Below are positions 7,345-63,153 of a stretch of DNA of 64,000 nucleotides, piece by piece. The DNA is from Branchinecta lynchi. Lineage: Eukaryota > Arthropoda > Branchiopoda > Anostraca > Branchinectidae. Location of the stretch: the NCBI GenBank assembly GCA_023053575.1, contig JAKZAP010000010.1, forward strand, positions 22,752,628-22,816,627, written 5' to 3'. A program made the translations under genes and the position numbers. How positions within the stretch are numbered: position 1 is the first letter of the stretch; each line of letters starts with the position of its first letter. The notes below the pieces were generated by a model, which made no database searches, was not told where the DNA came from, and saw nothing but the letters and a program-made list of their open reading frames with translations.

Positions 7345-7520
7345 AAATATTCTTTGAGCCCAAGCTGACTTTGAAACATTTATTCAAACAATGTTTACAA
7401 CGGATACGTCAGCTATGATTCTTCATCAGCGATATTTCGGCCCTTCTTGGCAAGGGTCCTCGTCAGGCTGTCAATAGTGTCAATCCTCTGGTTCAACTTC
7501 GGGGAAGGAAACAAACCTTT
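7345..7520 (-). mobile_element. Hammerhead-bearing small retroelement, subfamily A, partial
   Basis: Begins with the inverse of GGGCTCAAAGAATATTT and continues through the AACGGATACGTCAGCT block and the ribozyme core. It extends into CTGGTTCAACTTCGGGGAAG, which is shared with 43679-43926. The inverted second arm seen in other copies is missing and no TSD is visible, so the copy is truncated on the right, where AT-rich DNA follows. Confidence 0.7.
7424..7472 (-). ncRNA. Hammerhead ribozyme-like motif, subfamily A
   Basis: Read on the minus strand: stem I GACAGC, core CTGACGA (7466-7460), stem II GGACCCTT/AAGGGCC closed by GCCAAG, core GAAA, then TATC, then stem I GCTGATG. This is the type I hammerhead order with a two-pair stem III (AT/AT) and C as the base after which cleavage is expected (position 7431). 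The consensus CUGANGA...GAAA...UH is established; activity here is inferred. Confidence 0.7.
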
Positions 7521-8584
7521 ATGTCTCCACATTTTTTTTCTTTTTTTTTACTCTCTTTCTTTACCTCTTTTTTCTGTTTTTTTTATAAATATATATTTTT
7601 TATGAAAATATTTTTATGTAAATATACAACTAGATTAGTTTTTCTGTTATTATTTATTGATTAATTTTAAGTTATAAGGTGGTTAGAAGATCCAGCCACC
7701 CACAAGTTTTTTGTCTTTTATGTGGTTGTTGAATTTTTTGTATAATGTAAAATATATCTGAATCTGAATCTCCTTCCCAAGACACTCAAGGATATTCCCA
7801 GATACTCAACGAGAGGTTGTCCACTCTCAATTTTAGTGTACAGCAAGTGCACAGTGCCGGCAACGGCTGACACCAGCAGTCGTCGGTTGCCATGTTTTAA
7901 AACGTCAAAATAAGCATTTTGTATGCGTTTTAAAGATGAATCGCCTAATTTATGGCCGGCACCGGTGACGACGCATACGATTTTGGTCGGTGCCGGGAAA
8001 GGGTGTAAAGCAGGTGCTGGGGAGTGGGTAATCCCTCGATACTCAAGCATGCTCGTCAAAAATGATACATAATCTCAAGTCCTCAATTAGGCTGCAAACA
8101 CTCTGAAGAACAAATCATGAATTGGCCCTTGCTAAATCCAGGAAGCGAATTCTACAACTCGTACTGTCTTGCAATTTGCTCGCAGGCCGACGCCTCGATA
8201 TCTGGGAGGTTCAACGGAACTCAAATCCTGCCAGCTGTGGGAGAGTATCGCTCGGAAAAAAGATTAAACTGCGTAGTTGGATTCTTGCCAGTTAAAGAAA
8301 TGTTGATAAACAACTCAAAGTCTTAAGTGGAAATACGTGTGGAGATCGTACGGGATTATGACACAAAACAGGATAATCTCAGCTTGGCAACGCTGGTTAC
8401 GAAAATGGACACGTGGGAAATAGATAAAGAGAGTGGGGCGTTTATCAACGTGGAGATGAAGTTCTAAACAAAGTCATTCGCCAGGCTATTTCCAATTAGC
8501 AAACACGTGACAAACATCACGTACATCACACAACCCGTACTTACCGAGGGGTTGCGCACTGGTGCCCCATGGTGTACAAGTTCC

Positions 8585-8696
8585 CTGCCTCATGCCTGCC
8601 TCACGTGCCTCATGCCTGCCTCACGTGCCTCATGCCTGCCTCACGTGCCTCATGTCTGCCTCACGTGCCTCATGCCCGCCTCACGTGCCTCATCGC
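8585..8696. repeat. 20-bp tandem repeat with CACGTG, array 1
   Basis: About five units of CTGCCTCACGTGCCTCATGC, each carrying a palindromic CACGTG E-box core. It sits inside a dispersed repeat whose flank includes GAGGGGTTGCGCACTGG and ATGGTGTACA. The same array with the same flanks recurs at 11190-11350. Confidence 0.85.
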
Positions 8697-8929
8697 CCGT
8701 TCTGGTGACAAGTTTAGGGATTTTTGAAAATTTTCGCTCAGCTACGAGATCTGTGATGAATAACAAAAAGAGAGGGAGCTTCTTATCCCCTCAGGAAATT
8801 TGAACTGGGTTGTCCATGCGGATTATTTGAAAGGTAAAATAAATATTTCTTGTTAGTTGATTAATGCCTTTAATAAATAAATTAACTCTGACAGACTTAG
8901 GTATACTCAGGACTATTCAAAAGACTACT

Positions 8930-9232
8930 CAACGACTATTATTAAGGCAGTCTGTTCGTGTCCCTGATATGCCTACCAAATTTCATCGTCCTAGTACCGA
9001 ACTCGCGGGATCACCGAATTCCCCCCCCCCCCAAACTCCCGCCACAGTGCCCGAATCCGGTCCGGTTCTCTCAACGATGCATCTAGGACTTGTGCTTGTT
9101 CTTCCGACCAAGTTTCGTCCCGATCCCTCCACTCTAAGCGTTTCCCAAGAATTCCGGTTCCCCCTTCCAGCTCCCCCCAAAGTCACCGGATCCGTTCCGG
9201 ATTTTAAGTGGGTCGTCTGAGGCACGAGATCT
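8930..9232. repeat. TTTCATCGTCC-family repeat
   Basis: Contains TGATATGCC, AAATTTCATCGTCCTAG, GATCACCG, CCGAATCCGGTCCGGTTCTC, GATGCATCTAGGACTTGTGC and GTCACCGGATCC. All recur in the same order at 10400, 32210, 53755 and, inverted, at 56290. The open frames it contains (8864-9220 and its antisense) are by-products of the repeat. Confidence 0.65.
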
Positions 9233-11189: not shown

Positions 11190-11350
11190 ATCGTGTCTGC
11201 CTCATGTCTGCCTCACGTGCCCCATGCCTGCCTCACGTGCCTCATGCCTGCCTCACGTGCCTTATGTCTGCCTCACGTGCCTCATGTGCCTCATGCCTGC
11301 CTCATGCCTGCCTCACGTGCCTCATGCCTGCCTCTTCTGCCTCTGCCTCA
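11190..11350. repeat. 20-bp tandem repeat with CACGTG, array 2
   Basis: About eight units or part-units of the CTGCCTCACGTGCCTCATGC repeat, more degenerate than the array at 8585. Flanked by ATGGTGTACACGAAATCGG and GTGCGCAACCCCTCGGTAC, the inverse-side flank of the same dispersed repeat. The three overlapping open frames here are artefacts of the 20-bp period. Confidence 0.85.
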
Positions 11351-11813: not shown

Positions 11814-12338
11814 TCAACAGTTTCATGCAGGAATTACAAGACTTGCCCTGGAAATATATTAGTTTCCAATTTACCAGACAACGTAGCTGAATCAAGAACT
11901 GCATGTATTAGTAATTTGACTAGAGAACTCCACCAAAAATCGATCAAGAAAATCAAACGAATGAACTTACGATTCGGGTGGGAAAGGGGTGAAGAAGGGA
12001 AGGGGATGGGCACTTGGGAACTGGAGAAACGAGATGTTTGGGGGAGTTCGCAGGGGATGTTCGAGGGATGAATCAACAGTCAACAGTTTCATGCAGGAAT
12101 TACAAGACTTGCCCTGGAAATATATTAGTTTCCAATTTACCAGACAACGTAGCTGAATCAAGAACTGCATGTATTAGTAATTTGACTAGAGAACTCCACC
12201 AAAAATCGATCAAGAAAATCAAACGAATGAACTTACGATTCGGGTGGGAAAGGGGTGAAGAAGGGAAGGGGATTGGCACTTGGGAACTGGAGAAACGAGA
12301 TGTTTGGGGGAGTTCGCAGGGGATGTTCGAGGGATGAA
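11814..12338. repeat. 266-bp head-to-tail duplication
   Basis: 11814-12079 is repeated at 12080-12338. I find one base difference (GGGATGGGCAC versus GGGATTGGCAC) apart from the copy ends. Near identity in a region of decayed repeats implies a very recent duplication or an assembly error. Open frames on both strands simply follow the duplication. Confidence 0.9.
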
Positions 12339-14078: not shown

Positions 14079-14275
14079 ATTAGATATTCCTTCAGCCCAA
14101 GCTGACTGCGAATTATATTTGACAGTGCAAAACGGATACGTCAGTTTTATCACAAGTTCATTTTCGAATTCGACCAGCTTGAGCCTGTGGAGGACCCTTG
14201 CCAAGAAAGTCCGAAATACAGCTCTACTAGAATTAAGCTAACGTATCCGTTTTGCACTGTCAAATAATTCAACTA
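14079..14275 (+). mobile_element. Hammerhead-bearing retroelement, subfamily B, degenerate hairpin copy
   Basis: Two inverted arms (TTTGACAGTGCAAAACGGAT left, its inverse at the right) flank a ribozyme-like segment at 14179-14218: TTGAGC, CTGTGGA (decayed core), GGAC/GTCC stem II, GAAA, TACA, GCTCTA. Core base changes make cleavage unlikely. Confidence 0.6.
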
Positions 14276-17551: not shown

Positions 17552-17576
17552 CTGCCAGGTTACATTGATAATAGAT

Positions 17577-17739
17577 AGTTGACTACGTTAAACGGATACA
17601 TCAGCTGAGTTTTATCCTAGCAATATTTCGGCCGTTCTTGGCGAGGGTCGTTTTCAGGCCCCAGCTAGTAAAATGAAGCTGAGATCCGAAATTTCGCTTA
17701 AACAAAACTCAGCTGACGTATCCGTTTAACGAATTCAAC
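17577..17739. mobile_element. Degenerate hammerhead-element hairpin
   Basis: Inverted arms (GTTAAACGGATACATCAGCT left, inverse at right) flank the minus-strand ribozyme relic: CTGAAAA in place of CTGANGA, a GACCCTCGCCAAGAACGGCC-like stem II, then GAAATATT. Both arms also carry the GTATCCGTTTAAC block. Core mutations suggest it is inactive. Confidence 0.55.
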
Positions 17740-18399
17740 TATGCCCCACAGTCAGCTTGCAAAAAGCAAAAGAAGCAAACTTTCGCATGCAAACCGTTGA
17801 AGGGTCGCGTAGCGCAGATTGGCAATCTCCTAATACCCTCGGGGTTAGCACATCACAAAAATTTAGTGAGTGACTAAGCCAGGAACAGATAGAGAATTGT
17901 CACGTTTGGTCATTTTTGGTCGGAATCACTTTATGTCGTACTTAGTGAAAAAAAATAAAGTATAGTGACAATTTACTCTATGGTGCGACGTGTGGCAACC
18001 CATTCTGCCCTTGCCGGGAGTGCGATGCGTGGTCGAGGGAAAATCCTCCGACACTTCCCGCGCTTTTCCCTGGATTTCCCTAGGCACCCATTTGAAGCTG
18101 GGTGGACTTTTGACTTGTTATCTGGAAAGCCCTCGAAGCTCAAGCGCTCCTTGAAGGAAAGTCATATCGTGTTCTCTCCCATTTCATCTTGTCGTGAATG
18201 TCTACTTTATTAGGTTCCAGCTCTTTAAGACCGTACTCGGGCAATAAAATCAATTTATTTCCTAATCGGGAGCCTTCTCTCATTCATGACTCCAGAGCCC
18301 GAGTGAATTTCAGTAAAAGTCCGTCATGTGTCCAGAGGATCAATCTTGCCATATACCGTATCACTTTTCCGTCGGTCGGACAGAGGGAATTGCGAATAA

Positions 18400-23290: not shown

Positions 23291-24653
23291 TGGGAGCATA
23301 TGAGTGGGAAGGTCCACAAAACGTCCCCCTATATTAGGATTAGAACTCGGAGACAGAGGCAAAATTTTCTTATGGGTTTCGTCCTTTCTTCCTAAATCTT
23401 TTCACTGTCTCCTTTCATTTTTATTTATGTTCTTCCTCGACATTGGTTGTTACGTAGGACAAGCATGTTTCACGCCTGAGATCTTGGCTTTGACGTGACC
23501 CACAAGATAGAGTAGGTTTGTCTCAAGCAGAATATGAAGATTGGATTGGGACTTGTTCATGTGTCCAGGCTCTGATACGGACTTAGAACACTACTTATGA
23601 CCCGAGACGATCAGGGTCGGACAGTCGCGGACAATATTAATGCCACCATTTTTTACAGCAAGTCCGAACGGATAGGTAGAGGCTTTTTTTTTTACTTTTG
23701 GATGGAAGTGCGAAAATCAGGCCAAAAAAAAATGATCATTTGCCCGCATCATCAGCCTAAAATCCATCACGGATGTAATACAAGGACGTTTCCTGTCAAA
23801 TCCCTCTCATTGATCGATAAAGATCCCCAACGAATTCCTGCCACCAGATGGTTCGCCCCGGGACAATTACGGGCAAATTTTCTCACGATGGGTGACATGC
23901 CTCGGCGAACAAAGAAAAAAGAACCAACCAAAATGTGTACACTGTATAACTGCAAATCCGTTATAGGTTCTCTATTTTTTTTCTTTCTATTTAATGTTTA
24001 CGTTTGTAATACACAAGCAGATTATCAATGTGAATAAAAATGATCAGAAGGGATAAGTCTATTACGACGACTGTATTTGTATGTGAAGAAGCACTCTCAA
24101 CCTGATGTTATGGCGAGGGGTGTAGTAGGCCGGACATAGATGGTAAATGTCCTTAGATACAGTCATCGGTGTCAGGACAGCCTAGGGCGTCTGGTGGCCT
24201 ACTAAACGTGCAGACTTCACGGGTTCATTGTGGATTCCCCAGGATCGATTCAAACTAAGGTTTGCGTACCGAACCACAATAGGTTATAAACCACCCATCA
24301 TACACTAGGCCCTTCGGGCCAGCCCACTCTAAGGAACGTTGACCAAAATTCATAATAATGACCTATGGTCCGTAAATATACAAAAGGCTTTATTCTTTGG
24401 TACTTACAATATAAAACAACCTTTATGTAAAAAGGCTTGTTGCCCGGTCGAGACCCGGAAAAGAAGTATGAAGAAGGAGATGACTCATGCTCGCCAATGA
24501 GTCATGAACGTGAGGTAATAAATAATGCAAGAATCACGGCAGTATAGAAGATTGAAGAAACCGAATGGGAAGGGATTAATCCTGCCTAACGGCGGCAGAA
24601 ACTAACAGTACGGGGTGCAGACGGCACCACCGTAACAAGTCTGTTAGGATCTT

Positions 24654-24702
24654 CTTCAGAGATATTTCGGCCCTTCTTGTCAAAGGCTCTCTTCAGGCTG
24701 TG
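24654..24702 (-). ncRNA. Hammerhead ribozyme-like motif, diverged
   Basis: Minus strand: CACAGC, CTGAAGA, a weakened stem II, GAAA, TATC, then TCTGAAG. The core is intact but stem II pairs imperfectly (GAGCCTT against AAGGGCC) and the first stem I pair is lost. It is an isolated fragment next to a TA-flanked MITE. Confidence 0.45.
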
Positions 24703-24753
24703 GCTGGAAATATTGTAACAAGTCAATGACTGCAGGTTTATTCCAACAATATA

Positions 24754-25027: not shown

Positions 25028-25096
25028 AAATGCATTAAAGGGAAATGTCAGCTACGATGCTTTCGCAACGACATTTCGGCCCTTCTCGAAGCTTAA

Positions 25097-25650
25097 AGGC
25101 CCATTCACAACGGGTTTTAGCTAATACTCGGTACCAGCCAGTTCCGGAAATCGCTCTGAGACCGAGAATTCTGGGTTTGTCGTTCGCAATTGGTATTGGG
25201 ATTAGGATACAGGATCAGTTTAGGATACCAGCTAGTCTCGCACACAAGTTGAAATCAGTTCAACTTTTCAGGGTACTAGCCAATCAGATTATTTTGGAGA
25301 ATACTGAGGAATATTCTGATTGGCTAGTTTCGAACCAAGCCCAATAGATACAATCACATCCACTCCTTGCTGTCTTAAAAACCGAAAGCGAATTTAGGTC
25401 GTGGTTATTCAGTCTGACTTGGTTCAGCATTAGCCAATCGGAACATTCCTGAGTACTCCCCTAAGTAATGTAATTGGCTAGTACCCTGAAAAGTTGAACT
25501 GATTTCAACTTGGGTCGAGACTAGCTGGTACCCGAAACTGGCACCAATAGCAATTGCGAACGGCAAAAACCCAGCTAATTCTCGGTCTCAGAGCGATTTC
25601 CGGAACTGGCTGGTACCGAGTATTAGCTAAAACGCGTTGTGAATGGGCCT
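25097..25650. mobile_element. Harbinger-like foldback MITE, AGGCCCATTCACAACG ends
   Basis: 554 bp. AGGCCCATTCACAACGGGTT and its inverse define the ends, and the inverted arms extend far inward through ATACTCGGTACCAGCCAG, ATCGCTCTGAGACCGAGA and CAACTTTTCAGGGTACTAGC. TAA flanks both ends (25094-25096, 25651-25653). Non-coding; the plus-strand 100-codon frame is inside an arm. Confidence 0.85.
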
Positions 25651-25705
25651 TAAGTTAGGTACTGTTTGCAGGCTCGTTTCTTCTCCAACGCTGTCCCTGA
25701 AGTTC

Positions 25706-25751
25706 GACAGCCTGACGAGGACCCTTGCCAAGAGGGGCCGACTTATCGCTG
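25706..25751 (+). ncRNA. Hammerhead ribozyme-like motif, GAAA mutated
   Basis: GACAGC, CTGACGA (25712-25718), stem II GGACCCTT/GAGGGGCC, then GACT instead of GAAA, TATC, GCTG. Stem I pairs four bases. Loss of the GAAA strand should abolish cleavage. Confidence 0.5.
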
Positions 25752-25805
25752 CCAAAGCATTGTAGCTGACATACCGGTCTTATGCATTGTCTGAATATAT
25801 GTTTC

Positions 25806-26243
25806 AAAAAAATCAACGAAGAAACCAACGAAAATGCGGTTTGTAAAGGCCAACGAGTATACTCAGATAAAAGGCGAATATTTCGGAGTTATTCACCAGT
25901 ACTGAGCGAGAACACTCGTGATTGTTATTCGCAGGTATTGGTGAGTGGCTCGCTGTCTTTATCTTAGGCTTTCAATTCTTCCAATTTTGTTTTAATTTCC
26001 GATTTCTTGTTGGTTTTCTGCATTAGTTTGGTTTTATTGGTTGTCGATCTGGTTGATCTTCATCCTTGTTTTGACGTTTATCCTCAAAATTTTCTGTCTG
26101 CACTGAAGAAGGGAGGCGGTTGTCTTCCCGAAATATTCACCTTATATCTCAGTATATTCGTTGGCCTTTAAAAACACCATTTTCGTTGGTTTCTTCGTTG
26201 ATTTTTGCGATATGTCCGGCCAATGTGGTTTACGAAATTATCT
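25806..26243. mobile_element. Palindromic element (family C) with 12-bp TSD
   Basis: AATATATGTTTC is duplicated at 25794-25805 and 26244-26255, exactly flanking a 438-bp insertion into the hammerhead tandem. The insert has inverted arms (AAATCAACGAAGAAACCAAC, AAAGGCCAACGAGTATACTC and their inverses). A hammerhead-like core lies in its right arm. TSD length and structure match the other hammerhead elements here, so it is probably a related but distinct family. A 29-bp piece of its arm recurs inside the MITE at 31675-32023. Confidence 0.65.
26103..26137 (+). ncRNA. Possible hammerhead core in family C
   Basis: CTGAAGA, stem II AGGGAGG/TCTTCCC (terminal mismatch, two wobbles), GAAA, TATT. Stem I pairing next to it is poor, so this is a weak candidate. 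Confidence 0.3.
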
Positions 26244-26310: not shown

Positions 26311-26356
26311 ATCAGCCTGAAGAGGACCCTTGCCAAGAAGGGCCGAAATACTGCTG
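26311..26356 (+). ncRNA. Hammerhead ribozyme-like motif, second tandem unit
   Basis: ATCAGC, CTGAAGA (26317-26323), stem II GGACCCTT/AAGGGCC with GCCAAG loop, GAAA, TACT, GCTGA. Stem I pairs five bases here (TCAGC/GCTGA), more than the four of most subfamily A copies. The stem III/cleavage site is altered (TACT for TATC). Confidence 0.55.
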
Positions 26357-30655: not shown

Positions 30656-30853
30656 ATCGGGTTACCATAGATAGACAGATAGATACGATCTATCTACCTA
30701 TCGTCAGATGCCAGGAGTGGACACGATGGAGGAAGGGGCAATAACACAATTTATCTTCTCTTAAAAACAATTTATCTTCATTGTGTAGTAAATATTAGAA
30801 TAAAATAGACAATTTAGTGTGTTCTTAAACTGACATTTTATTTAGACTGATAT

Positions 30854-30995
30854 CAATATTCTTTGAGCCCAAGCTGACTTTGAAACATTTATTCAAACAA
30901 TGTTTTCAACGGATACGTCAGCTACGATTCTTCATCAGCGATATTTCGGCCCTTCTTGGCAAGGGTCCTCGTCAGCCTGACATTGTTTGAATAAA
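30854..30995 (-). mobile_element. Complete minimal hammerhead retroelement, 142 bp, 11-bp TSD
   Basis: TAGACTGATAT is duplicated exactly on both sides (30843-30853 and 30996-31006). In the sense (minus) direction the element starts TTTATTCAAACAATGTCAGG, runs through the ribozyme core and GCTGACGTATCCGTTG, repeats AACATTGTTTGAATAAATG and ends GGGCTCAAAGAATATT. It is the cleanest single insertion of the family and shows that a unit of only 142 bp can mobilise. Confidence 0.85.
30933..30981 (-). ncRNA. Hammerhead ribozyme-like motif in the minimal element
   Basis: Minus strand: CAGG, CTGACGA (30975-30969), stem II GGACCCTT/AAGGGCC, GAAA, TATC, GCTGATG. All core bases are intact, but the base next to C3 is G instead of C, which costs the first stem I pair. 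Confidence 0.65.
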
Positions 30996-31224
30996 TAGAC
31001 TGATATTTCAAGCACGTGTGGCGGTACGAATGTTTGTGTGGGAGTGTATTTAGCTGAGTTCTGGGATTATGAAAACCAGGCTCTTAAAACAAAATATCGT
31101 GCTATATAGCTATTTATGGCCCAAATAAACACTGACGTAGACTACCGAGACAAAACGTAGTCGACCCACAAAATTACGATCCCCCAAAGGATGATGCCAC
31201 ACAAATGAGACTTCTTCAAAATAA

Positions 31225-33375: not shown

Positions 33376-34147
33376 GCCCAAACTATTATTTATGTTTCTT
33401 GACTATGTCCAGGTTAATCAGGTCGTCAATCTTTTAACAATATATACTCCCGCATTCGCTCCCTAATACATCCAATATTCCTGACAAGTTCCATTATCCT
33501 AACAATGTAATTTGTTTAGATTATCCACTTTGTGCATATTCCCGCATTCGCTCTCTCATAGGTCTCAAATGATTTGTCTGTGAATTATTTTGAGTCACAT
33601 AAAAAGTTAAAATAACAAAAATAAATAATATTCAAGTTAAGCCTGCACTTCAGTTTCTAGTTCCATATTCGGACAGCATTGCCCCCCCCCCCCCCATACT
33701 CTAACCTAACTTGCCAACCTGTAAAAACTAAACACTTGACTTACCCCCCGCAAAAACCACAATTACCACCACCCCGGCGGAACCCCCTAGCTCCGGTACA
33801 GACCGCCCCCCCCCCCCCCTCACACACACACAATGTTAATGCAATATCTATTTATGATCAGTAGGCTAGCCCACATATAGAGGCGAGCTGCCAGCGAGCC
33901 ACCGTCACGCGTTGACATTTAACTCGCGGTTGGAAAAATCCTTACACGCTCGCGGTCAAAACTGCAGTTTTTAATAAGATTTTCCAATGTCCTATATATT
34001 TGCATTTGGGGGGGGGATGACTGGGGTGGGGGTGGTACCCGATGGATTTTCGCCAAGGGGATTTGGTGATAAATATTCCTTCAGCCCAAGCTGACTGCGA
34101 ATCATACTTGACGGTGTAAAACTGATAAGTCAGCTATATTTTATTAG

Positions 34148-34192
34148 ACCTAAATTTCGGACCTTCTTGGCAAGGGTCCTCTTCAGGCTCAA
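34148..34192 (-). ncRNA. Hammerhead ribozyme-like motif, subfamily B
   Basis: Minus strand: TTGAGC, CTGAAGA, stem II GGACC/GGTCC (fully paired here through a compensatory C to T), GAAA, TTTA, GGTCTAA. The first stem III pair (A-T) may still form, but TATA has become TTTA. Confidence 0.6.
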
Positions 34193-34309
34193 GCCGCTCA
34201 AGCTGGAAATTAAACTCATGCAAAAACTATTAAAGATTCTTCCTTAAATATCTGATTTTGTGAACTTCTTCTCTGAAAATTGGTTGGAGTTAAAGCTGGT
34301 GCTGTGATT

Positions 34310-34513
34310 TTATTTTGGACACGGCTGCTGTTTTTGCTGTTCGATTGGGTCGTCGAAAGGGTAGATATTCTTCTGCATTTTGATTTTGGAGTCAACTGTC
34401 TCTTCTTCTTCTTTCCAGCTAAGATGGATACTTGTCGGCGGCATGTATGGGCGATTTGAAGTTCTGTACTTTGGTGATAAATATTCCTTCAGCCCAAGCT
34501 GGCTGCGAATCAT
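34310..34513 (-). CDS. Short ORF inside subfamily B element
   Basis: 67 codons in the sense of the ribozyme. The core reads LSPKYRTSNRPYMPP, then TSIHLSWKEEEETVDSK. It aligns in the same frame with 52298-52534, with part of 41848-41946 and with a minus-strand remnant at 57095-57185, and the length differences are multiples of three. No domain is recognised. Retrozymes are normally non-coding, so this is either a real small protein, a relic of a longer parent, or chance. Confidence 0.4.
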   Translation of the reverse strand: MIRSQLGLKEYLSPKYRTSNRPYMPPTSIHLSWKEEEETVDSKIKMQKNIYPFDDPIEQQKQQPCPK

Positions 34514-34865
34514 ATTTGACGGTGCAAAACGGATAAGTCAGCTATATTTTCTTAGAGCTATATTTCAAGAAAGGCCGAAATATAGCTATAATAAAAATGT
34601 AGCTGACTTATCCGTTTTGCACCGTCAAATATGGTTTGGGTGGGGGGGGGGGGGTGTCCGTGTTTTTTGTTTGTTTTTTTTCACCAGGGAGGTTTTCACC
34701 TAGACCCGGTGGGCTTTTATACAGCAAAAGCTGCTTGAAGATCGGATTAGGATCAAGAATACAGAATTACTGAATGAATTATTCGGCTGAAATTTTGCTT
34801 CTGAAATAATTCAGCGCTCTTGCTAGGGGTCCTCTTAAGACCGTAGGAAAAAAATACAAATTCTA

Positions 34866-34900
34866 GCCAGAACAGGACCCTTGCCAAGAAGGGTCGAATC
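34866..34900 (+). ncRNA. Decayed hammerhead relic
   Basis: AGGACCCTTGCCAAGAAGGG followed by TCGAATCATTGC keeps stem II but has lost both core strands. An inverted partner (GCTAGGGGTCCTCTTAAG) lies 50 bp to the left. Confidence 0.4.
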
Positions 34901-35745
34901 ATTGCAAAAAAAAACAACATTTTAGCAACACCAAAAAGGCTTCGGAGGTAGCTTGGGCTTAAAGGACCTGTCTTGCCTATAATACTAACACAACCTGCTT
35001 CCATAATCACTCCATATATTTGTAAACCCGGAGAACCCAATTTCGTACGGTACATTCTAGGCCCTCTAACAAAACCACGCTGATTTCTCACTTGCCGTGT
35101 CTTGCTACCTTCAATGTGTATCACACTGTCGACGGTTTTCTACGACAAGTTTTTCCATCAGAGAAAAACCGCTTATGTAAATTATTTCTCTGTTTTCACT
35201 ATAAGGCAACAGGTCTTGGAAAGGGCTTAAAACAGCAAAAACAGTGGGTTATTTCTTGAAAGTACAGCTTAGTTTTAAAGTACTCAAATGTATTAAAATA
35301 CGGTAAGTTGAAGAGTATATAGTGCGAGGGGTCCTTTAAGGAATACTAATAGAATTATCAGTCGTTTATCGACCTTCAACAAACGGTGGGTTACACAACA
35401 GAAATGCAATGATATACGAGACCAAATTCCAATTACGCCACTACTTCCCTTCCTATAGTCCTCCGTTATTATATACACTTCTTACAGCCCAGTCGGTAAA
35501 GATAAAGGAGGAGCTGAGACGGAAAGCCCAGCTTGTGGGAAAACAATTGCTGACACTGGGAACATGGCTCATGAGAAAATAATAATGCTGATTACTCCAA
35601 GGAATGTACGAGAACAATCTTTAACAGAGAAACTGGAATAGCAATAAAGAAAACAAGTAGTTTCGAATATTGGTGTTATTTCACTGTCAGCGCGCATTAC
35701 AAGTCCTTGAAATGGAGGGGGGGGGGGTGTAAGCAACAATTGAGA

Positions 35746-41394: not shown

Positions 41395-42130
41395 AATATT
41401 CGTTCGCAGCCCAGAATCATGTTTGACAGTGCAAAACGGATACGTCAGCTGCATTTTATTAGAGCTATATTTTATATAACCTTATCCCTTAGCAGTGTGG
41501 AACTTTCATAGCTAGACACAAGTAACCGTCTTGGCTGAAACTAAGAGCGTGTTCCACCCTTCTAACAATAGCTACTATTTCCGTTCCATCCTCACGAAAA
41601 GTTACTACGCTGACCGTTCCAACCTTGTCGGAATAGTAACTAATAGTTACTATTTGCTTACCATGCTCGGGAGCGTAGTAACTACGCATCTCTGTAACGT
41701 GATTGGTCGGATTCACCCCTGGCGTGAGATCCTGCTGGAAAATAGAAAAATCGTTCCAGCCTTGACGGCAAAAAGTCAGAATTCGTCACGTCATGCGTAG
41801 CAACTACGGTAAGTAGGATGGAACACGCTCTAAGAGAAAGGTGATAGCAAAACCGAAATGCGGAAAAATATCTACCCTCTCAACGATCCAGCCAAGCAGC
41901 AAAAAACAGCAGCCATGTCCAGTATGAAATCCTATCACCACCTTTAACTCCAAGCAACTTTCACGAAGAAATTCACAAAATCAGAAACTCTAAGCTAGTC
42001 TTTCGTTGTTTTCCCACATATTCATTTTCCAGAGTGAGCGGCTTGAGTCCCGAAGAGGACCCTTGCAAGAACCACACTACAGCTCTAATCAAATGCAGCT
42101 GGCGAATCCGTTTTGCAATATCAAGCTTGA
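41395..42130 (+). mobile_element. Subfamily B hammerhead element split by a Harbinger-like MITE
   Basis: The left inverted arm (ATATTCGTTCGCAGCCCAG, GTTTGACAGTGCAAAACGGA) lies before the MITE at 41545. The body resumes at about 41833 with the DSKTEMRKNIYP-coding stretch, AGTTTT-rich sequence and a decayed ribozyme at 42046-42096 (CCGAAGA for CTGAAGA, GAAA lost). Further DNA (41475-41540) separates arm and MITE. Confidence 0.6.
41545..41830. mobile_element. Harbinger-like MITE, GAGCGTGTTCCACC ends, copy 2
   Basis: 286 bp, inverse orientation to 21757-22042, flanked by TAA (41542-41544, 41831-41833). Its sequence is nearly that of copy 1 throughout, so this insertion is young. Confidence 0.9.
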
Positions 42131-42784
42131 AAGGAAAACCTATCAGAAATCAAACAAAAATCTAGTTCACCTTTAGGATAGCCAAGACTAGACTTCCATT
42201 CCCCTCGCCGCGATATTTCCACTCATTTCCGATAAGAGAGAACTTGGGAACCTTGCCAGCACAAATATGGCCTCTCGTTTCTTGCTGTGTGGTTCCCGGA
42301 GTTGGGCCGTTTCGAACCAGCACATCTGAATCGGATGACAGACAGTCCAATCGCATCTGGATCGAGGTATTATAATCACAGGCTCGAAATCTGAAATACG
42401 ACAGCGAGGTTTCAATTGTCGCAATTATAATTACTCATAGCACTGGATATCTGTGAGTTCAAACTGAGGAAAAACAGTCTAACTGCATAGCTTTTTGATA
42501 AGTTCTAAAATTAAGATGATCCAAGCACATACCTACAGCAATCAGAGGTGTGCAGCATCACGAACACGTTAAAGAAGAGATGAACTAAATGCCCAAAAAG
42601 CCCGAGGGCCCTGGCAACACAAAAATTAATATCTAATAAACTCTAAATCCCATTAATCTAACAAACTTGCTCTAGGGTCCATCGTAAATCTGACGTATGG
42701 TCCCAAACGGAGTGGCAAACTGCTCGAGCAGAGTTACTCACCTCTCTCATCACCCTGAGAAAAGGTTAAACAAGGCTAAAGCCT

Positions 42785-42965
42785 TTTGGGATCGCAAAAC
42801 GTAAGTGGAGGAATTCCTATGACTTCATAAAAGCTGTCCATCTGTCTGTCAGTCTGTAAGCACGATAACTCTCGAAGGGAATGAGATATTTTGATGAAAC
42901 TTGGTGTGAGGACTCTTTGGATCAAGGGAGAGGTCGAGTTCGTAGATGGGCTATGTAGCTGAACA
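42785..42965. repeat. GGGATCCC-family repeat, left-end fragment
   Basis: TTTTGGGATCGCAAAACGTA, GTGGAGGAATTCCTATGACT, CTGTCTGTCAGTCTGTAAGC, GAGATATTTTGATGAAACTT and TTCGTAGATGGGCT match the left side of 4591-5508. Confidence 0.6.
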
Positions 42966-43678
42966 TTTATAGGCTAGCTAGCTTGTGGGTAAGGTAAGGT
43001 AGGTAACTTGTGAGTAGCAACCTGAAGAAGTGAATGCACGTGCGGTTCCTTCAGTGCTTACAGCACTTTCGCGGAAGAAGGTTGTTGGTGTAAAGTTATT
43101 ATTCGAAGAGGAGTTGATTTTAAGCAGGAACAGCGTATGCTGGCCCATTTTCAAACCACAGGCGGCGATGTACACGATATTAACAGGGACTTTAAAATAC
43201 CAAGAAAATAATATAGCAGGGTCACATACTCAATCTATTGGACGATACCGTAATAATAATATACTATAACATTACTACTTAAAAGTCCAAGCAAAGATAA
43301 CATGGCATAAACACAAATAAATAACAAAATCACTGGAGAGATATTTTCTCTTGCTTTATGAGCTGGATTCATGGAATGTAAAATAAGAATTAGCCGAAGG
43401 AAATAACACTGGGAATTTACTACTAAGAAATAAGCAAGTCAACATCGGTTAAAGAAACATCTCCTTGATGGTAGTTGGTGAATGGAGGGTTTGGAAGACG
43501 AGAGATAGGACAAATTGACAAATTGATTTATTAATTTTTAGTTTATTTTAGTGAAGGTTTGATTAGTTATATAATATGGTAGTAGATGTGTGATGGTTGC
43601 GTTTTTCAAGCACGTATGTGCTTTGTTTGTAACCGGTCGTCAAGCCGGAATGAATTTTTTCAGTAAACTTGTTGAATC

Positions 43679-43926
43679 ATTTATTCGAACAATGTTTACA
43701 ACGGATACGTCAGCTACGATTCTTCATCAGCGATATTTCGGCCCTTCTTGGCAAGGGTCCTCGTCAGGATGTCAATCCTGGGGTTCAACTTCGGGGAAGG
43801 AAACAAACCTGTAATGATTACAGGTTTGGGCCGAAATATCGCTGATGAAGAATCGTAGCTGACGCATCCGTTGTAAACATTGTTTGAATAAATGTTTCAA
43901 AGTCAGCTTGGGCTCAAAGAATATTT
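43679..43926. mobile_element. Hammerhead retroelement, inverted-arm copy with 14-bp TSD
   Basis: AAACTTGTTGAATC is duplicated at 43665-43678 and 43927-43940. The 248-bp element starts ATTTATTCGAACAATG and ends GGGCTCAAAGAATATTT. Left arm and right arm are inverted copies of the unit, joined through GGTTCAACTTCGGGGAAGG and GATTACAGGTTTGGG. The left arm keeps the whole ribozyme on the minus strand; the right arm keeps only its 3' half. Confidence 0.85.
43725..43773 (-). ncRNA. Hammerhead ribozyme-like motif
   Basis: Minus strand: GACATC, CTGACGA (43767-43761), stem II GGACCCTT/AAGGGCC, GAAA, TATC, GCTGATG. The core and stem II are perfect; the proximal stem I is weakened by two changes (GACATC for GACAGC). 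Confidence 0.6.
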
Positions 43927-44574
43927 AAACTTGTTGAATCCTGAACAAAAATTAGCCTGTTCTACAAGCCCCTAGTAGGTATTTTTTTTGTTCCTTCAAC
44001 TCACGTCTTATACCTTCAACCGTCATCACTGATAGTTGTTTCAGACAAACAAGAACATAGATGCGCACTTCCATGGTAATTCTGCATGCAGGCATATTAT
44101 GCAACTCAAATGAATTTGGTTGGTACATGTTCAATTGCACCACAATCCCATTAGAACTTGATAAGAGCGGATTTGTTTACTCCTGAAAGGTTACATTACA
44201 GGTAGTATACATGAATTGACTACCTGTGTGGCTGTGTACAGAAGGTTCTTGGCCTTTCCAGGCTGATAACCAATGCACGTCTCCTACTTCCCGGAAACAG
44301 CACTAAGGGATCAACGTTTGAACGGGTTGTTTAAGCCATTCTTATTGCTGTATATTCTAGCTTGCCTTCACTGTTGCCCACGGGCCGCATCTGAATCCTT
44401 CGAATTTTCAGCAATAATTTCGTTTCTAGTAATACTATATTGTAAAAGACGAGGCTTTTGCTTCTACGTTCAAGAGAGAACATGCGGTTTAATGCCTTTT
44501 GCCCCCCCCCCACCCCCAATGAACATATCTATCATCAACGTTGAACTAAAACTCTGATAACTCTCTCATCACTA

Positions 44575-44776
44575 AAACTCTCTCATCACACAAAGTTTCA
44601 TCAAAATATCTCATTCCCTTCGAGAGTTATCGTGCTCACAGACAGACGAACAACTCTTGCGATATCATAGGTATCCCTCCAGTTACGTTTTCGGGTCCCA
44701 AAAATCGTTCCAGCCTTGAAGGCAAAACGCAAGAATTCGTAACGTCATGCTACGGTAAGTATGGTGGAACGCGCTC
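44575..44776. repeat. GGGATCCC right-end fragment joined to a Harbinger-like MITE fragment
   Basis: 44575-44702 holds AAAGTTTCATCAAAATATCT through GATATCATAGGTATCCCTCC to GTTTTCGGGTCCCAAAA. 44703-44776 continues as CGTTCCAGCCTTGAAGGCAA to GGTGGAACGCGCTC, the end of the GAGCGTGTTCC MITE family. The junction is abrupt. Confidence 0.6.
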
Positions 44777-46084: not shown

Positions 46085-46190
46085 TATCTATAACCTGAAC
46101 AGGTCCACTGCAGTGGAAACCGAAATATTTCTGTAAGAAAATCTCAGTTAACTTTTGTTCTGGCGCCATCAAATATTTCTACGTCTATCT
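46085..46190 (+). mobile_element. Highly diverged hammerhead-element relic
   Basis: CTGAACA (46096-46102), a stem II with GGT/ACC plus CCAC/GTGG around TGCA, GAAA, TATT, then CTCAGTTAACTT and GGCGCCATCAAATATT in the places where subfamily B has CAGCTGACTTATCC and GCACCGTCAAATAT. Order and spacing support an old copy; the G8 to C change would inactivate it. Confidence 0.4.
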
Positions 46191-49225: not shown

Positions 49226-49771
49226 CTAACTGGAGACGAAGGTGGGGAGATGCTCAAACGCGAGGATATTGCGTGCGTCCATGGCAAAGTCCATTTTACA
49301 GGATGAATCGCTGTAGTCAAGACCGGGGGAGGAGGAGGGAGTGGACGTATACGACGAGTTTGACGGCGAGGGGGATGACTGGGCTTGCCGTATCGTCTCG
49401 GCAACGTGTCGCTCGTCGTACAAAACGCAGATTGAACCGTTCTCGCCAATCCGATATGATACCTCCGCTGGGTCCACCCACATAGTTAACTCACTTGGGA
49501 ACAAGGAATAAAGGAAACTGGCTGGGATTCCCGACTCCTCGCCTGCTCGAGCCAGCAGTGGGTCGATCTTGCCATTGATCCTTATGCATCTGTATCCAGA
49601 TCCCTTGAACGGCCTCTCGGTAAACCAATGGTCACTGTATCTTAGCCGCAAAGCCTCAATCAACCGTTCGCGGAACATATCCAACTGATGGTCAGGAACC
49701 GCCACGGAAGCTTTCTGGAGTCTTACAAGGCTGACCAGAAAATTTGCTGCCGATGTCACTTCTAGTCTCAT
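49226..49771 (-). CDS. BTG: BTG/Tob-family antiproliferative protein (BTG1/2-like)
   Basis: 181 codons in one exon. The N-terminal 120 residues form the BTG domain: box A around residues 45-65 (YSDHWFTERPFKGSGYRCIR then IN) and box B around 91-110 (FPSELTMWVDPAEVSYRIGE), followed by NGSICVLYDE. BTG1/2 proteins bind the CCR4-NOT deadenylase subunits CNOT7/8 through this domain, promote mRNA deadenylation, and restrain proliferation. Residues 131-160 are a Ser/Pro-rich tail, and the total length is close to vertebrate BTG1/2 (about 160-170) and far shorter than Tob. The ATG at 49771 is the first in frame and lies where BTG domains start. Vertebrate BTG1 and BTG2 have one intron in the domain; none is seen here, so it is either an intron-loss copy or a lineage feature. 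Codon use is GC-rich compared with the surroundings. Frames on the plus strand here are shadows. Confidence 0.95.
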   Translation of the reverse strand: MRLEVTSAANFLVSLVRLQKASVAVPDHQLDMFRERLIEALRLRYSDHWFTERPFKGSGYRCIRINGKIDPLLARAGEESGIPASFLYSLFPSELTMWVDPAEVSYRIGENGSICVLYDERHVAETIRQAQSSPSPSNSSYTSTPSSSPGLDYSDSSCKMDFAMDARNILAFEHLPTFVSS

Positions 49772-49840
49772 TTTCTTTTCAATGGTTTTCGATGGAAAGC
49801 GTTGAGGTGTTTTTATTGCAGTCGTCTCTCTTCACTAAAC

Positions 49841-52280: not shown

Positions 52281-52297
52281 CAGTCCGACAATCAAAT

Positions 52298-52534
52298 ATG
52301 ATTGGCTGTCAGCTTGGGCTAAAATATCTATCACCGAAGTACGGAACTTCAAACCGCCCATACATGCCGCCGACAAGTATCCATCTTAGCTGGAAAGAAG
52401 AAGAAAAGACAGCTGACTCCAAAACCAAAATGCAGAAGAATCTCTACAATTTTCAGCTCCCCAATCGAACAGCAAAAACAGCAGCCGTGTTCATAATTAC
52501 TCCCAGCACCAGTTTAACTCCAACCAATTTTTAA
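52298..52534 (+). CDS. Short ORF inside subfamily B element
   Basis: 78 codons in the sense of the ribozyme: MIGCQLGLKYLSPKYGTSNR, then PYMPPTSIHLSWKEEEKTAD, then SKTKMQKN. It aligns with 34310-34513 over about 48 codons with a 3-base gap (LKEYL versus LKYL), after which the two diverge. No known domain. Confidence 0.4.
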   Translation: MIGCQLGLKYLSPKYGTSNRPYMPPTSIHLSWKEEEKTADSKTKMQKNLYNFQLPNRTAKTAAVFIITPSTSLTPTNF

Positions 52535-52592
52535 AGAAGAATATATTTAAGGAAGAATCTTCAGTTGTTTTTCCACGAGTTCATTTTCCAGC

Positions 52593-52640
52593 TTGAGCCT
52601 GAAGAGAACCGTTGCCAAGAAGAGCCGAAATATAGCTCTA
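52593..52640 (+). ncRNA. Hammerhead ribozyme-like motif, subfamily B, best preserved
   Basis: Stem I TTGAGC, CTGAAGA (52599-52605), stem II GAACCGTT/AAGAGCC (weakened), GAAA (52627-52630), TATA, GCTCTA. Expected cleavage is after A52634. Stem I pairs GAGC/GCTC; the fourth pair is G-C here against C-G in subfamily A, a compensatory change. Confidence 0.65.
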
Positions 52641-52949
52641 ATAAAATGTGGCTGACTTATCCATTTTGCACCGTCAAATATACAGTCCGACCCTTTAAAC
52701 CTCTTTTCCATTAGCAAGGTAATAACAAGTGCAATAAACCGAATCGTAGCAGCCTAATGCCCACTTTGTCACAATTCATTAACAACGGCATATCATCGAT
52801 CATATGACAATACCGTCCAGTTTCCAACTGATCATTAAGGATTAAAGTATGCCGCATGGTCTTATTTGTTGCTGTCACACCAAAATCCGCATCCATACAT
52901 ACAAGTATGCCAAGAGTTGAACTCGAGACATGTCACAAGCAAGCTTAAA

Positions 52950-56745: not shown

Positions 56746-57037
56746 CACTAGGGTACATAAACTTGCAGAGAGATTCCTGTTACCTTGAATGCTACATATT
56801 GGCTAAATTGCTTATCAGCAACATCTTCAACTATTAACATTAGTGTTTTTTCACTTTTTGAAACACTTGTCATCAGATAAATGGCACAAAACCTTAAAGA
56901 AGAAATGTAGGGAAACTTGGCACCAAACCTCAAACAAAACTTCAAATCGACAGGTAAGTCTCTCTTCACAAAGATCCATACAGGATCCATCTGCATTAAA
57001 AATCAACTAACTTTTCGAATCAATTTCTCCAGGAAAA

Positions 57038-57232
57038 TTGCTCAAGAGTTGAAGCTGGTGCTGCAATTCTATTTTTTTCGCTGAAAGGGTAGTTTTTCCC
57101 CACTTTGGTTTTAATTTCACCTGTCCCTTCTTTCCAACTAACATGGATGCTTGTCGGCATTTCTGGGCATCTGTACTTTGTTGCCCAAGCTGCCTGCGAA
57201 TTCAGCTGACATATCCGTTTGGCACTATCAAA
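57038..57232 (-). mobile_element. Subfamily B hammerhead element fragment
   Basis: Carries GAGTTGAAGCTGGTGCTG, the ORF remnant (minus strand: KYRCPEMPTSIHVSWKEG then TKVGKNYPFS), GCCCAAGCTGCCTGCGAATT and CATATCCGTTTGGCACTATC. The ribozyme itself is deleted. Confidence 0.6.
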
Positions 57233-57575
57233 TATGATGGGAGATCATATTTCATTTGATTAGTAGGTTGAAAAAAAATGGGATTAGCCTGGACCACAAC
57301 TTCATATCTGAAGCCGGAAATTCTTGTTAGTCTTAGAAATTAGATTCTTCTGTTGATTAGACTTGATGAACAATAGTGTTAAATCAGAATTACCTATCCT
57401 TAAAGTTTAACTGAACAGGCAACTTATTTTTACATCTTAGATTCAAACACATTGAATTATTACAACACCCATTAGGGATTTTCATTCTGTCCACAGTAGT
57501 CTTCAGTAGGGACGTTGAGAATGTGGACGCTTTCCCATGGTGAATCCGTCCACAATTCGCCCGCGAAAATTTAAA

Positions 57576-59270: not shown

Positions 59271-59586
59271 CACTGTAAATGTCTCTCCTACATCGGACTT
59301 TGGTGGTTGCACATCACACATCATCAGAGAGTTAAAATCCGAATTCGGAGAGTTAAAATCCGAATTCGGAGGGTTAAAATCCGAATTCGGGGAGTTACAA
59401 TCCGATACAGGATTAAAACGCTAGAATGCAAAATACTGCAGACTAGGATAACTTAATCTGCAGCATTTCGCATTTTAGCGTTTTAATCCTGTATTCGGAT
59501 TTTAACTCTCGGAATTCGAAATAAAAATCACCGACTTGGTGATGTGCAACCTCTAAAGACCGATGTAGGAGAGACTTTTTACAGTG
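59271..59586. mobile_element. TA-flanked MITE, CACTGTAAA ends
   Basis: 316 bp. Inverted ends CACTGTAAATGTCTCTCCTA and TAGGAGAGACTTTTTACAGTG, flanked by TA (59269-59270, 59587-59588). CACTGTAAA termini with a TA target fit the Tc1/mariner group. The left interior has three and a half 21-bp units of GAGAGTTAAAATCCGAATTC; the right arm has only one. Confidence 0.85.
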
Positions 59587-59816: not shown

Positions 59817-61077
59817 GTAGGTTTCTAGCTTTTCAGTTGTAGATCTTGCATTTGTGACACATGTATTAGGATTCTTTTTTTTTTAGGTATTCTGAGGGTG
59901 TTAGCAGGGGGACAAATAAAATGGGAGGATAGTCAAACAGGCCAATACTGTTGGCTCATTGGTGCGAAAACTGGTTATGCAAATTTTGCCGAGTTTGCCA
60001 TCCAGGGTGAGGGGCTGTAAGGAGAGGCCAAGAAAAGCTACACCACTAGTTTCTGTAAATCCCCCTCTACCTCACCACCGCAATTGACAGAGTAAAATAG
60101 ATGCACAGGTTCATGAGTAGAAAACCTGCAATCTGAGTCCCTAATGGAGGTTTTGCTTATGTCTCAGTAGCAGAAACTGAAAGTTACCCAATACCTTATG
60201 AATCCGACTGCTTAGTGTGTCTATACGAGTACTGATTCTGAGACAATGGGGGATTGGCAGAAACTAGTCCACTTGGAGCGCTGAACTGGTGTAAGGCGAA
60301 TTGCGAGTTGAGTGTTCACACCTCAGAAGCTACTTACAAGGGCTTGGATGTTCAAAAAGCCCTTATTCACGTACGTGTTTGCAGATGGTAATTATCATGC
60401 CGGTAGCTAATGGCAAGAATTTGTTAGCTAGGATTGAATCTTTGAAGCTTGTTAATTAGCATAGCCCCTCCCCCCTCCCAGGATGTTAGTTACACCCCTG
60501 TCAAGGTGTAAGTCGAAACTAACTCCCCTTCATCCTCACGAAAATCATACATTTCTTCATATTACCTTTCTTGCCCAAAACTAGTATCTACTTTGAAAGC
60601 AAATATTCGTTGTATTTTGGTTCCAGTTTTTTTTGGACCAGGTTTGCTTCGTCCTTACTAAAATTATTTAATACTTCTTTCACTTTTACTCCCTTTCTTG
60701 CTCTTCCTGGCAATGCTTATTATGCATAACATATACGAGACATATTACACCCATAACGATAACATATTCACCCATAACGAGTTTCAAACACAACAGATTA
60801 CATCCAAGGTGTTGTCTGTTGAGTGTTGTCCATTGAACCTGAGCATCCTTGTGTTATCTGTTATGAAACTACTGACAGTGTTCAGTATTTTGAAAATAAT
60901 ATAATCTATATACCAATAAACGGGGTATTTTGGGTGGTTAATTAACTATGTGAGGACTGCTCAGTGCTCAGATAGCTGTGTGTTTGAAGAAGAAGACGGG
61001 GAAGCCATAGAGAAACAGTAGCATGAAGCTTTATATTCAAACATAAACTTGCATTCTAATTTTATGATTACTTTCAG

Positions 61078-61200
61078 GATAATATGGACCTGGCGATTTC
61101 AGCCTTGCAGGCTTGCCTTGTGCCAGTTACATTCGAACAGCTGTGTTGGTCATCATCAGTCAAAACTGCACCCGATTGGATGAAATTTAGTGAAGCATAA
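61078..61200 (+). CDS. Candidate terminal exon, unidentified
   Basis: Acceptor ATGATTACTTTCAG before GAT, then 40 codons and TAA: DNMDLAISALQACLVPVTFE then QLCWSSSVKTAPDWMKFSEA. A second frame is also open over most of it, so coding is uncertain; it could be part of a dispersed repeat. Confidence 0.25.
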   Translation, partial: DNMDLAISALQACLVPVTFEQLCWSSSVKTAPDWMKFSEA

Positions 61201-62923
61201 TGGGCTTTACAATGTTTTGAAACTCATGAAGCTAAAGAGATATACGGTTTTATTCTAAGTGCTTCATTGTGTTTTTGGCGTAAAATAGTAAAAAATAATA
61301 GACTGGTCTTTATTCTGAGCAGCTGCATTTCAGTAGTTTGGCCTAAGAAATGGGCTACTTGTCTGGACAAACATAGTTTGTAGACTGATACAATTTTTTA
61401 GCATCTTGATGGTTGTCAGGGTTTGGACACAGTGGATGGAAGGCAAACTGAGCTGAAGGTGAAACCTGGAATGTGCTTAGAATGGTGGGTGCTAAAGGTG
61501 CTAAAACATTGTTCAGGTAAGGTGCGTTAAATATCGGTCCTGAACCACAGGGTTAAGAGACACCAGCGGTTCAAATCAAATATCAATACTGCACCCAACG
61601 TAACAAAGGTGCCAAAATGCTAGTATATGTACTAATTGCTAGGTTTCATCTAAGACTTGAACAGTTTAGGCTCTGTTCCCCCTTGCTCTGTTTCTTCTTT
61701 CAAGGTTCCAAGCTTTCACAAAACAACACAACAGTCTGAAACTCAACATATTTTTGTCAATAGGTAACGAGCGTGTACATACTTTATCAGATTTTTTTTT
61801 CCTTCACAGATACTTCAAGCACTCAAACCGACAGACAACTCATTCCATTTTTTGTTTTGTTTAACTCACAGCTGGTCGATTTGAACCAGAAAATTAAAGA
61901 AGGAAAAATTTAAATTCAAAGAATGTAGGTAAAAACAACTTTTCATTTTGTGACAGGAAAATTGCTGCAAGAGACTCCTATTTACTGATACAAAATTTTA
62001 TATTTCACTATATTGTCAACTGTTTTGTAAACAGGGCCAAGATATGGAAAATTTAGAGAGGTGTCCAAATAAGCATGCTGCTACTGTTCTATCTGCATTG
62101 TACAGGCAAATCCTAGGGATTACTGAATGGTGGGAAATAGAACAGAAAATTTATAGTATTGGGTCTGAATGATTTTGACGAGGTTATGCAGTCCCACTGA
62201 ATATTTTCGGCTCTGTTTTTTTTTCAAAGCTCCAAGCATTCACAAACAAACATATAACAGTCTGGAAATTAACATATTTTTTTGTCAATATATAACAAAT
62301 CAGATTTTTTCCTTGACTGGTAGGTCAGACACTCAAACTAACCGACAACTTCGTAAAAATTATTTTACCTTGCTGCTATTTCATTTAAACCAGCAAATGA
62401 AAGAAGGAAGAGTTTAGAATTTGCGAAAAACTTTTTCATAAGCAAGAAAGAGTGGAATACAGCAAAGTTAGGGGAAAAAAGTGTGAAAGGCGTTGAATCG
62501 CATACTCTGCATTAAAGGAGGGGTTGACAACCTCAGACAAGATTTCAATTTTCCAGAGAAGTCTTGCCCTCAGAATAATCTATCTGGCTAAAAACGGAAC
62601 CAACAAATATGACAAACACACTAGATCGAAGCTAATTGAATGGTTTACAAAATTGACAGATACATATTGCTTCAGTATTTCTAGTTAAACATATTTTCTT
62701 TTCAGAAAAGATCCCTTCAGTTACCAAAGTCGATGACCCGAAAATACCTTTACAAAGCAGCTTGAAAACAAAGAAAAGGCACAGAATTTGAGTATTTTGA
62801 ACACATTAATAAGGGTTCATGCCCAAGAGCCAGAAGTTTGTTTTTTTTATTAAAAAAAAGTGATATTTTACCTCTTGACCGTCAGACAGCATGCACATTT
62901 CATTAAAACATTTTCGCTGAAAC

Positions 62924-63153
62924 ATTTATTCAAACAATGTTTGCAACGGATACGTCAGCTATGATTTTTCATCAGCGATATTTCGGCCCTTCTTGGCAAG
63001 GGTCCTCGTCAGTAAGGGTCCTCGTCAGTGCCTGACGAGGACCCTTGCCAAGAAGGGCCGAAATATCGCTGATGAAAAATCATAGCTGACGTATCCGTTG
63101 CAAACATTGTTTGAATAAATGTTTCAAAGTCAGCTTGGGCTCAAAGAATATTT
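62924..63153. mobile_element. Near-perfect hammerhead hairpin element with 11-14 bp TSD
   Basis: Two 94-base arms (62919-63012 and 63032-63125) are exact inverse complements around a 19-base centre, and the sense unit's tail GTCAGCTTGGGCTCAAAGAA follows the right arm. TTCGCTGAAACATT stands at 62913-62926 and again at 63155-63168, overlapping the element end slightly. Each arm holds a full ribozyme core, one per strand. Confidence 0.85.
62970..63074. ncRNA. Two opposed hammerhead cores
   Basis: Minus-strand core CTGACGA at 63012-63006 with GAAATATC, and plus-strand core CTGACGA at 63032-63038, stem II 63039-63059, GAAA 63060-63063, TATC 63064-63067, GCTGATG after the expected cut. Both cores and stem II are intact, but the bases 5' of each core (GTGC; TTA) give little stem I, and the long hairpin would compete with ribozyme folding. 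Confidence 0.6.

Follow-up and report, generated by a model that had tools for sequence, protein, structure and literature searches.

The window described here is a 64-kb stretch (64,000 nucleotides) of contig JAKZAP010000010.1 of Branchinecta lynchi, and it contains about 14 short, protein-free copies of mobile DNA, most of which are centred on a hammerhead ribozyme motif. These sites are very probably short, non-coding and non-autonomous derivatives of Penelope-like retroelements (PLEs) that comprise little beyond the pseudo-long terminal repeat (pLTR), i.e., a minimal type I hammerhead, a site designated X, and a 3' tail. The copies, including weak and fragmentary ones, are as follows (R1 denotes the covariance model introduced below).

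A7, 7343..7525, minus strand: minimal hammerhead at 7466-7427 with predicted cleavage base 7431; tail end at 7343, end at 7525 approximate
D14, 14081..14266, minus strand: runs from X (ATTTGAC..., 14266) to the tail (14081); hammerhead damaged, on the plus strand at 14185-14224
F17, 17575..17742, minus strand: decayed fold-back with hammerhead at 17657-17618
G24, 24642..24714, minus strand: 73 bases, a hammerhead with nothing but short flanks, enclosed by 10-bp repeats GACTTGTTAC
E25, 25029..25834, plus strand: hammerhead at 25712-25751 with GAAA changed to GACT; inverted 3' half at 25086-25029; split by another palindromic element (25096-25651); right outer end approximate
C26, 26240..26395, plus strand: hammerhead at 26317-26356 with TACT replacing TATC; by eye one permuted unit of tail sequence, hammerhead, and X side; both ends approximate
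A30, 30852..30996, minus strand: hammerhead core at 30975-30936; 17-nt inverted arm at 30996-30980; target duplication ATATCAGTCTA
B34, 34062..34637, minus strand: inverted arm, direct repeat of the 3' half, non-coding interior, hammerhead at 34186-34147, and tail
X34, 34801..34950, plus strand: decayed hammerhead at 34868-34907, tail-like sequence downstream; ends approximate; weak R1 match on the opposite strand at 34843-34801
41k, 41417..42130, plus strand: decayed B-type copy with inverted arms at 41417-41469 and 42078-42130 and further inverted repeats between; damaged hammerhead near 42045-42085, its R1 match (E=4.5) alone being at chance level
A43, 43672..43927, plus strand: inverted arm with a full hammerhead core on the minus strand (43767-43728); the direct arm begins at 43828 and the tail ends at 43927
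46091..46176, plus strand: weak decayed site
B52, 52292..52681, plus strand: single X-to-X unit with 382 nt between the X copies; hammerhead at 52599-52638 with damaged stem II
57k, 57033-57238: fragments of a B-type interior and X side in which no hammerhead is recognisable
A63, 62918..63155, plus strand: undamaged head-to-head cores at 63012-62980 (minus) and 63032-63064 (plus); tail end at 63155

The 12 measured elements range from 73 to 806 bases in length, the two longest containing other inverted repeats, and have a G+C content of 0.39-0.45.

Motif family and hammerhead architecture

The family motif consists of CTGANGA, a stem-loop built from GGACCCTT/AAGGGCC, GAAA, and TATH, and is present at 13 sites. 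The motif observation is real and was confirmed: the pattern CTGANGA-N4..30-GAAAT matched 12 times versus 1.55 ± 1.22 times (maximum 5) across 100 dinucleotide shuffles, and 9 of these 12 matches belong to one sequence family. The 13-site set was obtained by searching the window with at most 10 mismatches to the family consensus, and has members at 14185, 25712, 26317, 34868, 52599, and 63032 on the plus strand and at 7466, 17657, 24696, 30975, 34186, 43767, and 63012 on the minus strand. Covariance model R1, built from four copies (A7, E25, C26, and G24), recovered the nine remaining sites, each at E≤6.7e-7, and added two weak ones (34843-34801, minus strand, E=0.0028; 46091, plus strand, E=0.0051). 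R1 gave 28 matches in all, and the remaining 13 lie at chance level (E 0.3 to 9); all these E-values are rough. The weak site at 46091 is strengthened by the X-like ATCAAATA that follows at 46168. Separately, a second CTGAAGA...GAAATAT order with an unrelated stem II, located at 26103-26134 (plus strand) about 210 bases ahead of C26, is probably a chance occurrence.

The initial annotation of this DNA had reported a hammerhead-bearing family at at least ten loci, and the six coordinates that it named (7424, 30933, 43725, 52593, 26311, and 63028) all lie within the 13 sites. Of these six, which it designated the best cores, two are not among the best: the copies at 52599 (stem II mismatches) and 26317 (TACT for TATC). 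The cleavage bases it had predicted, 7431 (minus) and 52634 (plus), fall on position 17.

The motif is ordered as stem I, CTGANGA, stem II (with a bulged A and the loop GCCAAG), GAAA, TATH, and stem I, in agreement with the type I order proposed earlier, and stem III is indeed reduced to the self-complementary AUAU. In hammerhead base numbering, GAAATATC leaves only the pairs A15.1-U15.2 and A16.2-U16.1 and no loop, and stem III is therefore unable to close within one molecule. All 11 core positions of a type I hammerhead are kept in 8 of the 13 sites, i.e., in the five A cores (7466, 30975, 43767, 63012, and 63032), which share an identical and undamaged 40-base core, and in G24, B34, and B52; one to three of them are lost in E25, C26, D14, F17, and X34. 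Stem II mismatches occur in B52 and other copies, and the number of inner stem I pairs formed, out of four, is 4 in A7, 3 in A30 and A43, 2 in A63 (core 63032), and 1 in A62 (core 63012). Since neither a closed stem III nor an Rfam hammerhead match was found, only the minimal variant of the type I hammerhead can be assigned. The Rfam match above threshold that the initial annotation had proposed did not appear, either in the window at the gathering threshold and at E≤5 or in 7400-7520 at E≤10, plausibly because stem III consists of AU/AU alone and lacks a loop. The full active fold was not seen in monomer or dimer folds, and these folds were not used. Two hammerheads, in one or in two RNAs, could pair via AUAU and cleave each other.

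Constraint on this structure was assessed in an alignment of 8 of the 13 sites for stem pairing, which leaves out X34 and the A30, A43, A62, and A63 cores, and at 9 sites for consensus differences and codon positions, the same four A cores being omitted there as their 40-base cores equal that of A7. Stem cells were paired in 85.2% of 88 cases versus at most 53.8% for slid partners; 31 of 500 shuffles also reach 85.2%, and the pairing owes much to shared ancestry. A single pair is changed on both sides, from C-G to G-C in B34, B52, and D14, probably in one event, and the covariation score was equalled in 30 of 500 shuffles. Exchanging stem I arms among the copies gave no signal in duplex energy: 21368 of 40320 permutations equalled or surpassed the native arrangement, as did 379 of 720 when each subfamily was represented by a single copy. 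The inner four stem I pairs beat most swaps, being matched in 576 of 40320 permutations and, with single representatives of the subfamilies, in 48 of 720. An outer stem I helix, read by eye in several copies, was rejected for want of signal in the swap test (32608 of 40320; 656 of 720). Differences from the consensus affect 9 of 99 cells at the 11 core positions and 31 of 252 at the others, and are thus mildly rarer in the core. Protein coding by the LKRTLAKKGRNIA frame across the hammerhead was also rejected, as the differences at codon positions 1, 2, and 3 (8, 18, and 16) lack a third-position excess and thus give no sign of protein constraint. A better argument for constraint than the pairing statistics is that the hammerhead block is kept between subfamilies with unalignable flanks, e.g., G24 and A7, which share 52 nt at 87%.

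Element ends, arms, and inner junctions

The 3' end ...GGGCTCAAAGAATATT(T/G)A, also given as ATATT(T/G)A, is common to four A copies. In three A copies the inverted arm opens with ATTTATTC(A/G)AACAATG, the reverse complement of site X, which lies about 34 bases inside the 3' end; B34 and D14, both of B type and the latter taken in minus-strand orientation, likewise begin at X, with ATTTGAC. Of 13 elements tested, 8 proved to have inverted arms (A63, A43, A30, B34, D14, F17, E25, and 41417-42130); this set includes X34 and omits the 57033-57238 fragment and 46091. C26 has an inverted match of 13 nt only, and no inverted self-match at E≤0.01 was obtained for A7, B52, G24, and X34. Arm length in subfamily A ranges from 17 to about 95 nt. 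The arms of A63 (95 nt) are 100% complementary and the A copies are 95-98% alike, showing some insertions to be recent; such near-identity is evidence of recent insertion and not of RNA cleavage. B34 is the sole copy with a direct repeat (about 1.3 units), its two direct copies lying 408 bases apart next to an inverted arm.

Target duplications of 9-14 bp flank 6 of 13 elements, in a set that includes the 57-kb fragment and omits X34 and 46091. These are TTCGCTGAAACATT at A63 (14 bp), AAACTTGTTGAATC at A43 (14 bp), the duplications listed above at A30 (11 bp) and G24 (10 bp), CTAGTTGAATT/CTAATTGAATT at D14 (11 bp with one mismatch, extended by eye), and CAGTCCGAC at B52 (9 bp). Among 150 random comparisons each, none equalled the duplication for A63, A43, and G24, as opposed to 1.3% for A30, 3.3% for B52, and 6.0% for D14.

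Six inner junctions were read, in A63, A30, A43, and B34, and none of the six lies at the predicted cleavage site. Both A63 arms and A30 have their junction at CTGACGA or up to 7 bases upstream, which places these three 35 to 42 bases ahead of the cleavage base. The direct arm of A43 begins 12 bases before the cleavage base, its inverted arm extends to about 46 bases upstream of CTGACGA, and the upstream direct copy of B34 begins 7 bases before the cleavage base. The position of the inner ends does not seem to be determined by hammerhead cleavage. For the three junctions near CTGACGA, where the hammerhead core begins (30975-30982 and 62980-63064), a transcript start or an enzyme stop at the fold are guesses.

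Coding capacity and neighbouring features

A family scan of the 10 listed window open reading frames (ORFs) of at least 120 amino acids assigned one to BTG, one to RVT_1, and eight to no family, and no family-bearing ORF lies inside the elements. The ORF at 49226-49831 (minus) carries a full BTG-family domain (E=6e-38) and represents an animal gene. The ORF at 36041-37165 (minus) contains RVT_1 (E=2e-15) and a FADD motif, resembles a long interspersed nuclear element by eye, and found no counterpart in the PDB at E≤0.01; another fragment, with YADD, is located at 554 (minus).

The palindromic element inside E25 (25096-25651; 80% over 579 nt) ends in AGGCCCATTCACAAC, is flanked by TTAA, and resembles a piggyBac miniature inverted-repeat transposable element (MITE). 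A 266-bp unit is duplicated in tandem at 11814-12338 with 99% matches, and two arrays at 8586-8693 and 11198-11334, about 2.6 kb apart, have the 20-bp unit TGCCTCATGCCTGCCTCACG in common. A dispersed repeat with CAGACAGACGGACA and GTTTTGGGATCCCAAAA stretches (1962-2244, 5198-5511, 44583-44704, and 42784-42974) looks like a short interspersed nuclear element or a MITE by eye. Finally, a palindrome at 59392-59508 adjoins a 21-bp tandem repeat (59327-59405) and yields sub-threshold microRNA matches in Rfam; MIR8742, MIR6440, and similar Rfam matches were set aside as palindromes below the threshold of each family.

Origin and mode of spread

Direct and/or inverted pLTRs with an optional tail and short target-site duplications, as in PLEs, are found in the family, and the link to Penelope terminal repeats made in the initial annotation gains support from this layout of an inverted arm without tail, a 3' tail, and target duplications. 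The Penelope elements of Adineta vaga likewise have a shorter inverted pLTR, two direct pLTRs, an optional tail of about 30 bp, and a short target duplication (PMC3846280); the present elements differ in having no coding interior and duplications of 9-14 bp instead of 8-10 bp. One of these, Pen2a_Av, consists of two direct pLTRs, a 5' inverted pLTR that is 37 bp shorter, a 31-bp tail, and a 9-bp duplication (PMC3846280), and B34 follows the same plan minus the ORF: inverted arm, direct repeat, interior, direct repeat, and tail. Poseidon PAc of Anolis also has a hammerhead at the pLTR/ORF start and an internal start of reverse transcription that explains the tail, whereas it is autonomous and coding (PMC11167929). 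In vitro, both target strands are cut and then extended by the Anolis Penelope protein, which initiates reverse transcription internally and inserts without needing hammerhead cleavage (PMC11167929).

For the probable Penelope derivatives in the window we infer mobilisation in trans, dual priming, and dimer cleavage. An element copy would be transcribed, and a Penelope-type reverse transcriptase/endonuclease, provided in trans, would nick both target strands. Complementary DNA (cDNA) would start from the tail on one target strand and from X on the other, separate starts being proposed because the outer ends are fixed and the centres variable. The two cDNAs would then meet within the repeat. 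The resulting insert would be of fold-back type, with both outer ends fixed and the centre variable, and would have a target duplication of 9-14 bp. Self-priming on an antisense template, favoured for head-to-head inverts in PMC3846280, is a possible alternative source of these structures, and the fixed X might discriminate between the two.

One rival reading is that of canonical animal retrozymes, which spread as circular RNAs and consist of small tandem repeats bearing a type I hammerhead. These share with the present elements their small size, non-coding nature, type I hammerhead, and G+C content below 50% (PMC7229834). The unit sizes of about 156 nt (C26, by eye), 382 nt (B52), and 408 nt (B34) fall within the 150-450 bp given for retrozyme monomers, the G+C content of the 12 elements fits as well (PMC7229834), and a circular or tandem template would account for the unit-length, permuted appearance of B52 and C26. 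Nevertheless, the tandem array and stable stem III of the published elements are missing here: no direct repetition was seen beyond the approximately 1.3 units of B34, stem III cannot close in the monomer, 8 of 13 elements carry inverted arms, and none of the six inner junctions read coincides with the cleavage site. This origin is thus considered unlikely, and the term retrozyme, as applied in the initial annotation, is not supported in its published animal sense, which implies a canonical hammerhead in tandem repeats. The presence of long inverted repeats, such as those at 34509-34634 and 62918-63126, would also suit DNA transposons of MITE type in which a hammerhead-like stem-loop lies by chance within the terminal inverted repeats. 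This reading is very improbable given the variable arm length within subfamily A, the four elements without arms at E≤0.01 and the 13 nt of C26, the tail at one end only, and target duplications that vary from 9 to 14 bp. That the repeats share a dead or coincidental stem-loop that never was a ribozyme would agree with the negative Rfam scans, the only mildly lower rate of differences in the core, and the weak covariation; the complete motif order with all core bases in 8 of 13 sites, the block common to subfamilies with unalignable flanks, and the presence of a like motif type in animal Penelope elements (PMC7761336) make it quite improbable.

Several results weigh against an origin from PLEs. 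No Penelope protein was recognised among any of the 10 listed ORFs, and a GIY-YIG pattern gave 0 matches over the window; the Penelope origin is therefore based on layout and hammerhead, with no enzyme, and as an ORF with reverse transcriptase plus GIY-YIG (or reverse transcriptase alone) was not found, the elements are filed as derivatives that behave like PLEs and not as PLEs. Target duplications were not found at 7 of 13 elements (A7, B34, F17, E25, C26, 41k, and 57k), the test being unfair for E25, where inner ends were used. Compensatory change is thin and the arm-swap tests were mostly without signal. Moreover, copies outside the window numbered 0 in viral contigs and 0 in genome contigs, collections hardly expected to hold an animal element. 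The interpretation in the initial annotation is, as a whole, partly supported.

The find is real but largely expected, hammerhead motifs being common in animal genomes. In many of these, minimal type I hammerheads number in the thousands; most are dispersed and some lie in Penelope pLTRs, their role is described as unknown, and PLEs are named as likely movers of animal retrozymes (PMC7761336). One coral has more than 6000 type I motifs, 1508 of them canonical and the rest minimal (PMC7229834), and action of the minimal type I form as a dimer has been proposed (PMC7761336, PMC7229834). The present sites resemble these hammerheads in type I order, a stem III without nucleotides of its own, abundance in dispersed non-coding DNA, and proposed dimers; in the window, the flanking elements are delimited, with fold-back, tail, target duplication, and no Penelope ORF. 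"Short, nonautonomous Penelope elements" of heliconiine butterflies are similarly short and protein-free (PMC6685494), in a passage that mentions neither structure nor hammerhead. Titles and abstract openings in the literature searched do not describe fold-back, ORF-less Penelope elements with hammerheads, a negative that does not extend to two key Penelope-hammerhead papers; for this reason, and because short nonautonomous Penelope elements are already in print, novelty is not claimed.

Tentatively, and with considerable doubt, the dispersed minimal hammerheads of animal genomes might largely be ORF-less fold-back Penelope parasites, primed on both strands from tail and X, with cleavage defining no cDNA end. 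If so, the ribozyme would serve another step, such as release or dimerisation of the template RNA. Delimited insertions that carry target duplications, some of them young, illustrate what dispersed hammerhead units can be, and their defined ends (X, tail, and inner junctions) provide handles on dual-strand priming and on the relevance of cleavage.

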